Shown in pieces: positions 38,674 through 46,331 of a stretch of 61,553 nucleotides of DNA (positions are counted from its first letter, which is position 1; each line of letters opens with the position of its first letter). The position numbers and the translations under genes were made by a program. The notes beneath the pieces are model-generated. The model was not told the DNA's origin. It was given only the letters and a program-made list of their open reading frames with translations, and did not search any database. This DNA comes from an uncultured bacterium (GTDB lineage Bacteria; Acidobacteriota; Thermoanaerobaculia; Multivoradales; J023): assembly GCA_937948815.1 (NCBI GenBank), contig CALFAM010000161.1, positions 1-61,553 on the forward strand, in the 5' to 3' direction.

Positions 38674-38789
38674 GCGAGCTTGGCAGATCGAGCCTGGCAA
38701 ATGGCGTCCGGCTCGGCGCAGAAGGATGCATGCTCCCGCAGCCAGCATCCGATAGCCTCGGTATCGTCACCTCGACCTGGGAACCACTC

Positions 38790-40613
38790 ATGAGCCTTCG
38801 CGTACGCCTGTTCCTGATGATCGCCAGCATGGTCTCGCTACTGGTCCTGGCCCAATGGTGGTGGGTCCGCAGCCTGACCGACGAGCTGGCGGAGGAAGTC
38901 GACTCCGTGGCCCTTCAGATCGGAAACTCCGTGGCAGAGGTCCTGATCGCGAGCGTCAGCCCGGGCAGCCAGGCCATCGCCACGCCGGCCGCCACCCGCC
39001 CGCACTGTGCCGAAGACGATCCGGATTGTCGGCGCCTGCGCGTGGTGCGGAAGGTGATCCGGCGCGGTCCCGTCAGCGGTGACGACGAGCACGTGGTCTT
39101 CTTTCGCCAACGAACCGCTACGCGCACCGAGGAGCACCCGCACGGCCATGCACCGCGCGATCTCGCCATTCCCCCCGGGGACGCCGATTCCGAATCAGCC
39201 CACTGGGTCGATCGCCAGATCTTCACAGACGACGAGAGCGGCCGGCACCAGGTGATGACCTACTCGTTCGACATCAGCCGATCGGTCAACTGCCCCGAGG
39301 ACGACCGGGACTGCGCGCGGGCTGCGGATGCCGTTTTCATGTTCGCGGACAGCCACAGCACCCACACCAGCAACGCGCATGAAGCGCACGGCGGAGTCGA
39401 CCGCCATCTCGCACTGCACCTGAACACCTGGATTCCCGACGACGCGGTGACGGAGGTCGTGGCAACGGGCGGCGCGGCCGCTGATAGCGCGGCCCGCCAG
39501 TCCAAGCCCCCACCAACGCTGGTCGAAGCGGGCGGCCCCCGCGGCGCCAGGGCCCTGGGCCGCGCTGCAGCGCGCGAAGGCGACGGATCCGTACAGTTGA
39601 TTCCGATTCGAGACGGTGGCGTGCAGCAGCGTATCGATCGTCTTTCCCAGCGCTTGATGCTCGGCTCTGGAGCCTTTCTGATGCTCGGTCTGCTGGCCGC
39701 TGCATTCGTCGCTCATCGGGTCAGCGCGCCGCTGCGGCAGCTATCGGCCGCAGCCGAGCAGGTTGGGCGAGGGGCGCTCGGCACGCAGATCGAGGCGACG
39801 CGAGCTGACCCCGATGTCGGGCAGGCGATCGCTGCCTTCAATCGCATGTCTGACCGGCTGGCCTCCCTCGATCGCGCCCACCGCGAGCTCGCGGCCAGCC
39901 AACACCTCGGCGAGATCGGCGATATCGCGCGCGGCCTCGCCCACACGTTGCGCAATCCTCTCAACGCACTCGGCCTGTCGCTCGAAGAGATCGCCGCGCG
40001 GGCTCAGCAAGGCGATGTGGAGGACGAAGGCACGAACCAGCTGGTGGCCGGCGCGCGCCGGCAGATTCGCCGCGCTGACCACAGTATCCGCTCTTTCCTC
40101 GCCCTCGCGAGCCACGGCGGCGAGGTAGAGCGCGTGGATCTCGCCGAGTTGGCGCGTGATGTGGCGCTCGAAGCCCTCCAAGATGCTGGCCGGAAGGTCC
40201 TGGTCGAGGTCGACGCGCCGGATCCGGCACCGATCTTCGCGATCGCGCCCGAGGTGCGCGCCGTGATGCAGGCCTTGGTGGTCAACGCAGTCGAAGCCAG
40301 CCCCGGCAGCGAGACGGTACACGTGACCGTCCTCGCGGCCACCCCGCCACAACAGGAAGACAACGTCACGGTGACGGTGGCCGACCGCGGCGCCGGCCTG
40401 CCCGAGTCGGTCAAGGCGCGCCTGTTTACACCCCATCAGACCACCAAATCACACGGCTCGGGCATGGGCTTGTTCCTCGCTCACCGCATGGCCACCACTC
40501 GCTACGGCGGCAGCCTTCGAATCGATCCGCGCCCGGACGGCGGTACTGTCGCCGTGCTCACCCTCGGCCCCCGCCAAGAAGGCCCTCAGTCCCCGGTCGA
40601 AAGGAATCCATGA
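38790..40613 (+). CDS. Sensor histidine kinase with duplicated CxEDDxDC ectodomain motifs
   Basis: A 607-residue membrane kinase, the likely sensor of the adjacent sigma-54 regulator. One membrane segment near the N-terminus (LFLMIASMVSLLVLAQ) and one near 285-310 (AFLMLGLLAAAFVAH) enclose a periplasmic domain of about 250 residues. This domain has HCAEDDPDC (C73, C80) and NCPEDDRDC (C168, C175), and His-rich patches (EEHPHGHAPRD; six His between 189 and 213). HAMP, an H-box GLAHTLRNPLN (H385) and an ATPase with VNAVEAS and GSGMGLFLAH follow. The H-box His-Thr-Leu-Arg-Asn-Pro is the NtrB/ZraS-like form. The start at 38790 is preferred to an ATG at 38730. The stop overlaps the regulator start (ATGA). 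Confidence 0.9.
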   Translation: MSLRVRLFLMIASMVSLLVLAQWWWVRSLTDELAEEVDSVALQIGNSVAEVLIASVSPGSQAIATPAATRPHCAEDDPDCRRLRVVRKVIRRGPVSGDDEHVVFFRQRTATRTEEHPHGHAPRDLAIPPGDADSESAHWVDRQIFTDDESGRHQVMTYSFDISRSVNCPEDDRDCARAADAVFMFADSHSTHTSNAHEAHGGVDRHLALHLNTWIPDDAVTEVVATGGAAADSAARQSKPPPTLVEAGGPRGARALGRAAAREGDGSVQLIPIRDGGVQQRIDRLSQRLMLGSGAFLMLGLLAAAFVAHRVSAPLRQLSAAAEQVGRGALGTQIEATRADPDVGQAIAAFNRMSDRLASLDRAHRELAASQHLGEIGDIARGLAHTLRNPLNALGLSLEEIAARAQQGDVEDEGTNQLVAGARRQIRRADHSIRSFLALASHGGEVERVDLAELARDVALEALQDAGRKVLVEVDAPDPAPIFAIAPEVRAVMQALVVNAVEASPGSETVHVTVLAATPPQQEDNVTVTVADRGAGLPESVKARLFTPHQTTKSHGSGMGLFLAHRMATTRYGGSLRIDPRPDGGTVAVLTLGPRQEGPQSPVERNP

Positions 40614-42100
40614 AGACGATGCGGGATCGCACAGGACGCGATCGAACGGAATTCGACGCTTCGACTACCACCACGCATCACGTGCTCGTCGTAGAGGATG
40701 AGCCGGACCAGCGATTCTTGGTGGCCAACATTCTGCGCGGCCAAGGCTACGAAGTCAGCGAAGCCGACGGTGTCGCGGCTAGCCAAGAAATCCTCGCACC
40801 CAGCGATGCCGCGACCGCCTCCCGCCGAGCGGGCCCGTCGCAGGCCACCGGCTCCCCACGATCAAAACGCCCGGTAGACGTCGTGGTCAGCGACTGGCGG
40901 CTGACGGACGGCAATGGGCTCGACGTGCTCACGGCCACCCGCGAGCACGCCCCAGGCGCGGCATTCATCATGGTCACGGCCTACGGCACCATCGCCCGGG
41001 CGGTCGATGCCGTGCGAGCAGGCGCTGACGACTACCTTGCGAAGCCCTTCGAACGTCAGGCGCTCGTGCTCGCCCTCGAGAAGGCACTGCGCGCACGCCA
41101 CCTCGAAGACGAGAATCGCCGCCTCTCCGAAGCACTCGGTGAGCGCGACCGTCTCGTCGACCTGGTCGGCAGCGCACCCTCCATGCAAACGGTCTTTCGG
41201 CGGGTCGAGAAGCTTGCCGGGACCGCCGCTACCGTGCTGCTCGGCGGCGAGAGTGGCACCGGCAAGGAGCTCGCAGCCCGCGCCCTGCACGCCCTCTCCA
41301 AACGATCGAGCATGCCGTTCGTCGCCGTCAACTGCGCAGCCATCCCGGAGACGCTGATCGAGTCAGAGTTCTTCGGCGTCGAGAAAGGCGCATTCACCGG
41401 CGCGGACCGCGCTCGTGCAGGCTCGTTCGAGGCTGCACATGGAGGCACACTCTTTCTCGACGAGGTTGGCGAGCTGCCACTGGCCGTACAGCCCAAGCTC
41501 TTGCGCGCCCTCCAGGAAAGCCGGGTGACGCGGGTCGGCGCCCACCAGGAGCGACCGGTAGACGTTCGGATCATCGCCGCCAGCAACCGCGACCTGGGCG
41601 CCGAGGTGCAGCGCGGTGCCTTCCGCGAGGACCTCTACTATCGGCTCAATGTGGTGCCGCTGCGCATGCCGCCCCTGCGCGAACGGCGGGAGGATATCCC
41701 CCGGCTCGTCGACCACTTCGCGGACCGCGCGGCGCGTCGGCACGGCATGGCGGTCGACCCGTTCCCGGCCCACGTTCTCAAACAGCTGATCGACTACCCT
41801 TGGCCGGGCAATGTGCGTGAGCTCGGCAATGCCGTCGAGCGGCTGGTGCTGCTTTCCGAGGGAGGCGTCGTCTCCGCGAACGACCTTCCCGCGACCTTGC
41901 TCCCCGCTCCGGCGGAAGAGATCGGGTTTCAGCTTCCTCCCGGGGGCATGTCGTGGGAAGCACACGAGCGTTCGTGCCTGGCCCAAGCCCTGAACGTGGC
42001 GGGCGGCAACCGAGCGCGCGCCGCGCGCCTTCTGGAGCTGCCGTACAAGGCCTTCCTCTACCGTCTCGAGAAATACGACCTCGTCCCCAACGGCGGTTGA
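40610..42100 (+). CDS. Sigma-54-dependent response regulator (NtrC/ZraR-like)
   Basis: A 496-residue activator with the standard three domains. The receiver has VLVVEDEPDQ and phospho-acceptor D95 (VVSDWRLTDGNG); about 25 low-complexity residues are inserted before the D95 strand. The AAA+ domain has GGESGTGKEL, the GAFTGA loop (260-265) that contacts sigma-54, GGTLFLDEVGELP, and RLNVVPLRMPPLRERREDI, of which PPLRERREDI is the conserved part. A Fis-type helix-turn-helix (GGNRARAARLLELPYKAF) ends the protein. Intact GAFTGA supports true sigma-54 activation. Its probable targets are the two sigma-54 promoters flanking this pair. Confidence 0.95.
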   Translation: MKTMRDRTGRDRTEFDASTTTTHHVLVVEDEPDQRFLVANILRGQGYEVSEADGVAASQEILAPSDAATASRRAGPSQATGSPRSKRPVDVVVSDWRLTDGNGLDVLTATREHAPGAAFIMVTAYGTIARAVDAVRAGADDYLAKPFERQALVLALEKALRARHLEDENRRLSEALGERDRLVDLVGSAPSMQTVFRRVEKLAGTAATVLLGGESGTGKELAARALHALSKRSSMPFVAVNCAAIPETLIESEFFGVEKGAFTGADRARAGSFEAAHGGTLFLDEVGELPLAVQPKLLRALQESRVTRVGAHQERPVDVRIIAASNRDLGAEVQRGAFREDLYYRLNVVPLRMPPLRERREDIPRLVDHFADRAARRHGMAVDPFPAHVLKQLIDYPWPGNVRELGNAVERLVLLSEGGVVSANDLPATLLPAPAEEIGFQLPPGGMSWEAHERSCLAQALNVAGGNRARAARLLELPYKAFLYRLEKYDLVPNGG

Positions 42101-42216
42101 TGGCCGTCGCGTGCGGCATGGCCAACCGCGGCCCCTCAGCACGCCGCGACGCCCGATTTCAGCAAACACCTCCTCATTTCAGGAGATCGTTCTGCGTCCC
42201 TCGAGCACGCATCACC

Positions 42217-42235
42217 CGCGGAATGACCTTCCGCG
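42217..42235 (+). promoter_or_regulatory. candidate activator-binding inverted repeat
   Basis: Perfect seven-base arms CGCGGAA and TTCCGCG are separated by five bases. The site is about 40 bases upstream of the exact sigma-54 promoter, within the range of enhancer sites for Fis-type helix-turn-helix activators. Further upstream, ATTTCAG occurs twice with a 20-base period (42156 and 42176), which could be a second element. No matching repeat was found near the promoter at 38658. Confidence 0.4.
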
Positions 42236-42272
42236 CGCAGTTCCGCCTTGGTCGCTCCGTCCTGGCCACACC

Positions 42273-42288
42273 TGGCACACCCATTGCT
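42273..42288 (+). promoter_or_regulatory. sigma-54 promoter of the secreted protein gene
   Basis: TGGCACACCCATTGCT is an exact match to the sigma-54 core (TGGCAC-N5-TTGCT), with the -24 GG and -12 GC twelve bases apart. The start is expected near 42299, giving a leader of about 59 bases that ends in a normal GGAG ribosome binding site. It lies between the sigma-54 activator gene and the secreted protein gene, so the regulatory link is direct. Confidence 0.85.
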
Positions 42289-42357
42289 CAATCGGCTTTC
42301 CAACGAAGCCACGACACAAGGATCGACTTCACCCATTTCATTCGAACTGGAGACATC

Positions 42358-43083
42358 ATGAACACCGACGCTACGATCGCGCAGAGCTCGCCCAAGTCCA
42401 GCCTGCTCAAGTCTGGCCTGTTGCTGGCCCTCCTCGCACTCTCTGCCTTCGCCCTCGTCGCCACGGCAGGCGAGCCTGACATCGACCGACAGGTCAAGCT
42501 GAAGATCCTCGCCGATGACGAGATGGTCGAGCTGGATCTCTCTCACCTCGAGGTCGGCGAATCCGAGCAGCTCTTCTCCGAGAGTGGCAAGGAGATCGTG
42601 GCGCTGCGCACCGAAGAGGGATTCGAGATCGATGTCGAAGGCCGCGACGAGCCGATCATCGTCAAGACGGGCGACCACGCCTACGCCTTCTCGGTCGACC
42701 ACCACTGCGAGGAATCAGACGACGACTGCACGCACAACGTGATCGTGCGCAAGAACGTGCACATCCTGCACGAAGAGGACCATCACGAGCATGGTGAAGG
42801 TGCCCACTCGATGGTGTTCATCAGCGGAGAGGGTGAGCAGCACATTGTCGGCGGCCATGCCAACGTGTGGCTCTCGAGTGAAGGTGAAGGCGAAGGCATG
42901 AAGGTCTTTCGCTTCAACGGTGGAGGGGAGGGGGCCATCGAGAAGCTCCTCGCGTCCGGCGCCCTGGACAACCTCGACGAGGCCAAGCGTGAGGAGATCC
43001 TCGAAGCCTTGCGCAGCGGTCACGGCGAGGGCAACGTGCGCGTCAAGGTCATCGAGAAGCACCGCCACGAGGACGATCAGTAG
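42358..43083 (+). CDS. Exported acidic, His-rich protein sharing a motif with the kinase ectodomain
   Basis: A 241-residue protein of no recognised family. GGAG lies six bases before the ATG. A signal peptide covers about 1-45 (GLLLALLALSAFALVATAG), with a longer than usual polar N-region. The mature part is strongly acidic and rich in His, Gly and Glu (EEDHHEHGEGAH, HRHEDDQ). HHCEESDDDC (C117, C124) matches the two CxEDDxDC motifs of the kinase, and the next residues, VIVRK, match VVRK after the first kinase motif. A helical segment DEAKREEILEALRSG lies near the end. It is the predicted target of the sigma-54 pair and is followed by a terminator. Metal binding or a signalling role is inferred only. 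Confidence 0.85.
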   Translation: MNTDATIAQSSPKSSLLKSGLLLALLALSAFALVATAGEPDIDRQVKLKILADDEMVELDLSHLEVGESEQLFSESGKEIVALRTEEGFEIDVEGRDEPIIVKTGDHAYAFSVDHHCEESDDDCTHNVIVRKNVHILHEEDHHEHGEGAHSMVFISGEGEQHIVGGHANVWLSSEGEGEGMKVFRFNGGGEGAIEKLLASGALDNLDEAKREEILEALRSGHGEGNVRVKVIEKHRHEDDQ

Positions 43084-44414: not shown

Positions 44415-46124
44415 TCAGTGGTGGGCTGGGGGCGCCGGGAAACCGGTCACGACATAGCTCCCCGAGCGTCGGTCTCGCGCCAGCACCACGACCTGCTTGT
44501 CTCGTGCATCCTGGAGCAGCTCCGAGAAGCTGTCGTAGCCGTAGTAGCCCTCGTTGAACGATGGCCGCTTGCGCTTCATGGTCTGCTTGATCATCGAGCC
44601 CCAGAGAACTTCCTTGTTCTCGCGTACGAGCGCGACGATGGCCTCGATCATCAGGCCGAAGACTTCGGCATCCTTGGGCGAGAGGTGATCGAGACGCGGC
44701 ACGCGCTGCACGTCGCGCCACATGTCTTCGTAGTAAATGAACTCATCACAGTTGTCGATCAGCAGGTTCGACGACGAGTTCTTGACGCCGATGCCGATCA
44801 CGTACTTGTTGTTCTCTTTGAGCTTCGAGACCAGCGGCGAGAAATCACTGTCGCCCGACACGATGACGAACGTGTCGAGATGGGGCTTGCTGTAGCAGAA
44901 GTCCATCGCATCGACCACGAGCTTGATGTCTGCGCTGTTCTTGCCCGCGTAGAACTTCTGCGGGATGTCGATCAGCTCGATCGCCGCCTCGTGGAATCCG
45001 CGCTTGTAGTCGCCGAATCGCTCCCAGTCCGCATAGGCCCGCTTGACGATGATCTTGCCCTTCTCGAGGACACGCTCGAGCAGCAACCCGATATCGAACT
45101 TCTTGAAGTCCGAGTCCCGGACGCCGATTGCGATGTTCTCGAGATCACAGAACATCGCAATTCGCGCCTCTGATGTCTCGGCCGCACTGGACGTCGTCGC
45201 GACGGGCGCCGAGTCATGCTCGACCGTGCGGTGTCCGAACGGCGCCTTCGGGAGGTCACAGTCGGCCGGCAGAGAGGCCTCCGCCACCGGCGATCTTGGG
45301 GCCGAAAGGCCGGCTTCTGAGACCACGGGCGCCGCTTTGCGCGCGGCACGCTGGTCACCGCCGTGCGATCCAGGCGTTTTCCGTTCGGCCGGCGGCGAAT
45401 CCTGAGCAGATCGTTCATCGCGGTCCGGTGGCTGCTCAGCCTTGGGACGAACCTCAGACTTGGGCCGGCGCTTAGACTCTGGACGAACCTCAGACTTGGG
45501 ACGGACCTCAGCCTTGTGGCGACGATCAGCCTTGGGACGAACCTCAGCCTCGGACCGCTCCTGCGCGGGTTCGGCCTCGGGCTCCGGCTTGCGCTTGGGC
45601 TGGCCTTCGCCTTCAGGTTTCGGCGGCGCGCTGTTCCAACTCGTGATCTCGCGCGCACCGTCGGGCCGAGAGCCCGCGCTCCGCGATGCCTTTGTCCAAG
45701 ACGCCACCTCCGGATCCGCGGACTCCGATTCCTTGGACGCCTTCGAGCCTCCGGCGGTCGTTGCCGGATCAGCCTGCTTGCCTTCCGAGGCGGGCAGCTG
45801 CTCGACACTCGCCTCGCTCGGCTGCGCCCGCTGAGGTCGACGACGGCGGCGCCCACCTCGGCGGCGGCGTGTCGATGCCGCGGGCTCCGCATTTCCGGCC
45901 TCTTCCTCACCTGTCGACTCGGTCGCCCGGGCCGCCTCCACGGTCTCGGTGACCGCGGGCTCGGCACGCGCCGAGCGGGCGGCCCGGTTCGCCGGTTCGC
46001 CCTTCCCGCGCCGTGGACCGCGGTCATCGGATGCCTGCTGAGCCTGGGGCTCCTCGGACGCCGGCTTGGTCGCTGAATCGTCGTCGTTGCTCGCTCCCAA
46101 CCACCAAGGTGACACCGTTCGCAT
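44415..46124 (-). CDS. NYN-domain and LOTUS/OST-HTH RNA-binding protein with long disordered N-terminus
   Basis: A 569-residue protein. The C-terminal half has a PIN-like NYN domain (about 320-467) with acidic metal-binding residues in FCDLEN (D327) and VSGDSDF (D425, D427), followed by a LOTUS/OST-HTH-like domain (about 478-562). This pairing is found in LabA-type bacterial proteins and in animal MARF1/Limkain and suggests RNA binding or cleavage. The first 300 residues are disordered: an Arg tract (86-99) and about six hexapeptides of the type EVRPKS (193-229), from an 18-bp minisatellite. The ATG has GGAGG directly before it; a GTG three codons later, nine bases from GGAGG, may be the real start. 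Confidence 0.88.
   Translation of the reverse strand: MRTVSPWWLGASNDDDSATKPASEEPQAQQASDDRGPRRGKGEPANRAARSARAEPAVTETVEAARATESTGEEEAGNAEPAASTRRRRGGRRRRRPQRAQPSEASVEQLPASEGKQADPATTAGGSKASKESESADPEVASWTKASRSAGSRPDGAREITSWNSAPPKPEGEGQPKRKPEPEAEPAQERSEAEVRPKADRRHKAEVRPKSEVRPESKRRPKSEVRPKAEQPPDRDERSAQDSPPAERKTPGSHGGDQRAARKAAPVVSEAGLSAPRSPVAEASLPADCDLPKAPFGHRTVEHDSAPVATTSSAAETSEARIAMFCDLENIAIGVRDSDFKKFDIGLLLERVLEKGKIIVKRAYADWERFGDYKRGFHEAAIELIDIPQKFYAGKNSADIKLVVDAMDFCYSKPHLDTFVIVSGDSDFSPLVSKLKENNKYVIGIGVKNSSSNLLIDNCDEFIYYEDMWRDVQRVPRLDHLSPKDAEVFGLMIEAIVALVRENKEVLWGSMIKQTMKRKRPSFNEGYYGYDSFSELLQDARDKQVVVLARDRRSGSYVVTGFPAPPAHH
45435..45560. repeat. 18-bp tandem repeat (minisatellite) within the NYN gene
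   Basis: Seven consecutive 18-base units of the type CTCAGCCTTGGGACGAAC, in exact 18-base register at 45435, 45453, 45471, 45489, 45507, 45525 and 45543; the last one and a few internal ones are diverged. The units keep the reading frame and encode the hexapeptides in the disordered part of the NYN-LOTUS protein. Copy-number change would lengthen or shorten the linker without a frameshift. Confidence 0.9.
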
Positions 46125-46331
46125 CCTCCGCAGACTGACTGATTTCGAGGGGTCGCCCGTATCGTGCCAGCAGGAATGCAGCACGCCGGACATGGACTGC
46201 GGATCCTACCATCGGCACCGGCCAAGTTCCGGCCCTCTTCGCCACAACCTAAGCCGGTCACGAAACGCTATACTCCCCGCCCGACCGTGATCGCGGCATG
46301 GACGAGCCGCCAACGGCCAGACGGATCTCTC

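Follow-up and report, generated by a model that had tools for sequence, protein, structure and literature searches.

Results

A kinase, an activator and a secreted protein lie in one run

The window, the whole 61,553-bp stretch of DNA that was analysed, comes from an Acidobacteriota genome, probably of the Thermoanaerobaculia, and carries a run of three genes on the forward strand. The first (38790–40613, +) encodes a membrane sensor histidine kinase with Pfam HAMP, HisKA and HATPase_c domains, and its orthologs also lie upstream of the activator. The reading frame opens at 38730, and the conserved start, MSLRxRLFL, is at 38790. The kinase has two transmembrane helices and a large, variable periplasmic domain; the model of this sensor domain was too poor for interpretation (mean pLDDT 57.6).

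The second gene (40610–42100, +) encodes an NtrC-family response regulator, or sigma-54 enhancer-binding protein (Pfam Response_reg, Sigma54_activat at 9e-71, HTH_8). An earlier sequence-only reading had placed an activator gene upstream of a promoter, and we observed the full domain set of the NtrC family in this product: a receiver, an AAA+ domain with the GAFTGA motif and a Fis-type HTH. Activator orthologs at related loci were 63–72% identical, and their HTH carries a conserved, unusual helix signature, LPYKAFLYRLEK.

The third gene (42358–43083, +) encodes a secreted acidic, His-rich protein of 241 aa with a signal peptide. A GGAG ribosome-binding site precedes it at 42349–42352 (+), and GGAG or a similar sequence stands before the start in most orthologs. 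The protein belongs to an unnamed family: it had no Pfam or NCBIfam family, and neither sequence nor fold searches of the PDB gave a significant match. Across 39 family members, Pfam gave just two isolated matches, each in a single member (SHMT and CopK). In the AlphaFold model, mature residues ~9–66 form a small beta domain of high confidence (near pLDDT 90); the acidic/His-rich middle is disordered, and the C terminus folds as a helical hairpin. Further along the window, an NYN nuclease with an OST-HTH/LOTUS domain has a long, charged, repetitive N-terminal extension (KAEVRPKSEVRP...; 44415–46193, −).

A sigma-54 promoter precedes the secreted gene

The sequence-only reading had noted a full match to TGGCAC-N5-TTGCT after the activator gene. 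We found this –24/–12 element, TGGCAC-ACCCA-TTGCT, at 42273–42288 (+). It is the single exact occurrence of TGGCACN5TTGCW in the 61.5-kb window (0.04 expected from shuffles). At 13/13 orthologous loci from the same taxonomic order, a –24/–12 element is likewise present in the interval that separates the activator from the secreted gene. By phylogenetic footprinting, we take the predicted promoter at 42273–42288 to be real, with a predicted transcription start near 42299. The earlier proposal that this promoter drives the secreted gene, with the neighbouring activator acting from upstream, thus stands as a prediction; the enhancer that it had assigned, CGCGGAA-N5-TTCCGCG, was not conserved.

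A search for RpoN in the assembly that contains the window (82% complete) returned none. RpoN is encoded in 57/59 genomes of the order, the same genus included, and most likely that part of the genome is absent from the assembly. Exact sigma-54 sites number 26 across the same assembly, whereas the reversed pattern occurs 12 times; 25 of the 26 sites end in TTGCT. Given this excess, the uniform ending and the presence of RpoN in the order, the organism very likely uses this sigma factor. Several of the genomic sites (L128–L153) precede genes for exported proteins, pseudopilin-like genes (L140, L150) and genes for FtsX/MacB-like permeases (L142, L146, L152).

The conserved enhancer candidate is a palindrome pair at 20 bp

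Two upstream elements had been put forward in the earlier reading, which ranked an inverted repeat first and a direct repeat, ATTTCAG with a 20-base period, second; comparison of orthologous upstream regions had been suggested as a check. In that comparison the direct repeat was conserved and the inverted repeat was not.

The inverted repeat is present as described, ~40 bp upstream of the promoter at 42217–42235 (arms 42217–42223 and 42229–42235). Its perfect 7-N5-7 symmetry at this position speaks for a reading in which it serves as the enhancer and the direct repeat is incidental. Yet the palindrome was absent from every ortholog, where the 20-bp pair is conserved in its place. Perfect inverted repeats of the 7-N5-7 form number 18 in the window, or one in every ~3.4 kb (88 when spacers of 3–8 are allowed). 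A perfect repeat with 7-bp arms and any spacer of 0–12 also arose in 11% of shuffles of the intergenic region. These data suggest that CGCGGAA-N5-TTCCGCG is probably due to chance, and we regard an enhancer role for it as highly improbable.

ATTTCAG occurs at 42156 and 42176, and in both places it makes up the middle of a 16-bp palindrome. Setting the intergenic regions of related loci side by side gave the consensus CTCCC-S-AWWT-S-GGGAG (CTCCCSAWWTSGGGAG), mostly in two copies that are 20 bp apart in most orthologs, with exceptions at 19 or 21 bp. In the window, the distal putative activator site, UAS1 (CGCCCGATTTCAGCAA, 42150–42165), is degenerate, matching 12/16 consensus positions, and lies 20 bp from the proximal putative site, UAS2 (CTCCTCATTTCAGGAG, 42170–42185), which begins 103 bp upstream of the –24 element. 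UAS2 is the sole exact match to CTCCYSAWWTSRGGAG in the entire genome assembly. A strict tandem pattern gave no matches across the family, the copies being degenerate.

The summed best UAS score over the 14 regions of the order, the window included, was 206, against 147 ± 3.1 for dinucleotide shuffles. In a hold-out of 38 loci outside the motif definition (Acidobacteriota and Gammaproteobacteria), the sum was 526 against 393 ± 4.8, with a shuffle maximum of 409; the loci are related, so such counts are non-independent. The second palindrome copy in the hold-out loci formed a sharp peak at exactly 20 bp. The UAS was weak in L094, and L069, L086, L092, L100 and L104 had no good sigma-54 site within the scanned stretch. 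Judged by conservation, the enhancer candidate is therefore the 20-bp repeat that had been ranked second. It supplies the palindromic sites near a target promoter that are expected for an NtrC-family regulator, and we infer that the activator binds the pair.

Distances between palindrome and promoter follow the helical repeat

The distance from the promoter-proximal palindrome to the –24 element fell into clusters at 46.7, 57.3, 68.3, 78.3, 88.5 and 102 bp. This ladder has a period of ~10.85 bp (P = 0.0003 for unique distances; P = 0.0017 for the hold-out alone), values to be read with the caveat that the loci are related and that the promoter was taken as the best-scoring site. A ladder of ~10.9 bp suggests that insertions and deletions have kept the UAS and the promoter on one helix face. 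Some gammaproteobacterial loci have long distances that lie off the short ladder, up to 289 bp (L063) and 350 bp (L090). Such naturally varied distances offer a ready data set on the DNA-looping constraints of sigma-54 enhancers.

The module recurs, and the palindrome travels with its target

The secreted protein was found in 14/72 genomes of the order, that of the window included. The 13 relatives preserve the succession of kinase, activator and secreted gene up to the limits of their contigs, and PGK or TsaD often adjoins the module, as in the window. A scan of genome contigs with the single secreted protein gave no matches, the sequence being too divergent, and a 13-row alignment of the family was too variable as a query. 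We therefore scanned with the activator HTH (LPYKAFLYRLEK), using one genome per species, and obtained 60 loci. These came from Acidobacteriota, Gammaproteobacteria (Alishewanella, Arsukibacterium, Rheinheimera, Colwellia, Aliikangiella and Lysobacteraceae), Planctomycetota and others.

With the window counted, 51/61 loci include a member of the secreted family. Its gene directly follows the activator at 36 of these; at the other 15 it is divergent and upstream of the kinase. The UAS travels with the target: in the divergent loci it lies between secreted gene and kinase. This movement bears on another reading of the palindromes, in which they would fold into RNA hairpins where the activator mRNA ends and would serve as a terminator or processing signal. 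Many loci do place them ~40 nt or less from the activator stop codon. The 15 divergent loci, in contrast, have the palindrome far from the activator 3' end, and it also stands upstream of unrelated sigma-54 targets elsewhere. Neither the 20-bp spacing nor the helical phasing to the promoter is expected of hairpins, and the window region has no terminator-like site. Because the palindrome moves with the target gene, a hairpin of the activator mRNA is disfavoured, and we give it only a slim chance against a DNA site for the activator.

Four loci (L073, L101, L078 and L083) have the activator and the palindrome without a recognised secreted partner. The adjoining gene in L073 and L101 reads as a CNNM-like membrane protein, and the target may have been replaced there.

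Few further targets are predicted

We searched eight relatives for UAS sites at up to one mismatch and found 1–4 per genome, commonly the secreted gene's own. One further target with a promoter, seen in L112/L126, was a PDZ protein whose gene heads an operon that includes ABC-type genes; another, in L116/L127, was a secreted protein that resembles serine hydrolases. In the genome of the window, the 20-bp UAS pair was present at 2 of the 25 exact sigma-54 promoters that were scored (0.0025 expected). These two precede only the secreted gene at 42358–43083 and a gene for a secreted aspartyl protease with a PDZ domain (contig 303, L154:2600–3928; locus with pair and promoter, L154:2397–3928). The protease gene is predicted to be a second target of the same activator.

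Single UAS matches were also tried as a guide to the regulon in this genome. At two mismatches they did not outperform the reversed pattern (19 versus 17), and the one-mismatch match lies inside a coding gene resembling cystathionine synthase. Sigma-54 has been proposed to govern mainly the bacterial exterior (PMC3162934), and the envelope theme of the predicted targets is in line with this proposal.

A probable envelope-signalling circuit

Overall, our data suggest a three-gene, sigma-54-dependent envelope-signalling circuit of a kinase, an activator acting on a 20-bp palindrome pair and an exported protein, a reading that we hold at a probability of roughly 85%. Dozens of bacteria, drawn from two phyla or more, carry the promoter and the paired sites beside the same gene trio; the module is thus probably a genuine circuit that controls the cell envelope, though an undescribed one. 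We found no description of it in the open-licence literature.

In the proposed mechanism, the membrane kinase (38790–40613) would detect something outside the inner membrane and phosphorylate the activator (40610–42100). Activator dimers would then occupy the palindromes at 42150–42165 and 42170–42185 and form an AAA+ ring. This ring would loop ~100 bp to RNA polymerase–sigma54 at TGGCACACCCATTGCT and open the promoter. The resulting transcript, from ~42299, would encode the small exported acidic/His-rich protein. Envelope or metal stress is the presumed signal, and the exported protein may have a feedback or scavenging role.

The circuit makes an enhancer code testable: a recognition helix (LPYKAFLYRLEK), a 16-bp palindrome pair at 20 bp and a helical-phase rule. 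For poorly cultured Acidobacteriota, and for several gammaproteobacteria that can be cultured, it also yields a predicted sigma-54 regulon, and it marks the unnamed family of exported proteins as candidate envelope effectors.

Known sigma-54 two-component systems are similar in logic

In the zinc-dependent Zra envelope-stress system of Salmonella and E. coli, zraSR and zraP have divergent promoters driven by a sigma-54 response regulator, and ZraP is a zinc-binding periplasmic chaperone (PMC4987338). A paper cited there names ZraP as a repressor of ZraSR. The module resembles ZraP/ZraSR in that a two-component sigma-54 activator controls a neighbouring gene whose product is a small periplasmic protein, and some gammaproteobacterial loci share the divergent layout.

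The logic of a sigma-54 two-component activator controlling a periplasmic metal-binding protein (PMC4987338), together with the shared layout in some gammaproteobacteria, would also fit a true Zra zinc envelope-stress system, with the kinase as ZraS, the activator as ZraR and the secreted protein as ZraP. The equivalog scores refute this membership: the kinase reached 67.1 bits against a ZraS cut-off of 479, and the activator 365.9 bits against a ZraR cut-off of 760. Unlike ZraP, the secreted protein here has no Pfam family. The target also lies downstream of the activator at 36/51 loci, and the enhancer is different, paired at 20 bp. The envelope-stress system ZraP/ZraSR is the best functional analogue, but the module is not a Zra member, and we attach next to no probability to that assignment.

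The undescribed circuit shares other features with AtoC/NtrC, which have the same domain order of receiver, AAA+ (GAFTGA) and Fis HTH. AtoC (417 bits) and NtrC (400 bits) were the best NCBIfam scores of the activator, below the cut-offs of 714 and 558.6 bits, and the activator here differs from both in having its own recognition helix (LPYKAFLYRLEK) and its own enhancer (CTCCCSAWWTSGGGAG). PrsK/PrsR is a sigma-54 two-component pair that controls exported proteins in PEP-CTERM/exosortase systems. Its likeness to the module lies in the exported target and in profile matches to both partners, each under the cut-off (kinase 68 of 300 bits; activator 371.6 of 502.6 bits), whereas the secreted partner here matches no family.

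Sensor domain and exported target share sequence features

The exported protein probably acts in the periplasm, as an effector that either buffers the signal or exerts feedback on the sensor. We compared it with the periplasmic domain of the window sensor and observed C-x5-D-C and His-rich tracts in both. Their cognate alignment had a z-score of 5.8, the best of 23 partners. This sequence mirroring of sensor and target, strong in the window, was weak over all loci (permutation P = 0.026).

Across 24 pairs, target content correlated with sensor-domain content for His (rho = 0.75) and Cys (rho = 0.63), and target and kinase-domain content did not correlate (rho = 0.14 for His). Relatedness is only partly controlled in these correlations, and sister-pair contrasts agreed in sign in 9/12. 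We take these data as a mere hint of a shared ligand of sensor domain and exported target. A fuller reading, in which the sensor periplasmic domain and the target of an undescribed envelope-signalling family co-evolve on the same ligand, perhaps a metal, with the target as both scavenger and feedback ligand, is speculative and on balance doubtful. In L067 and L077 (Alishewanella/Arsukibacterium), Pro-rich tracts were instead present in both the sensor domain and the target.
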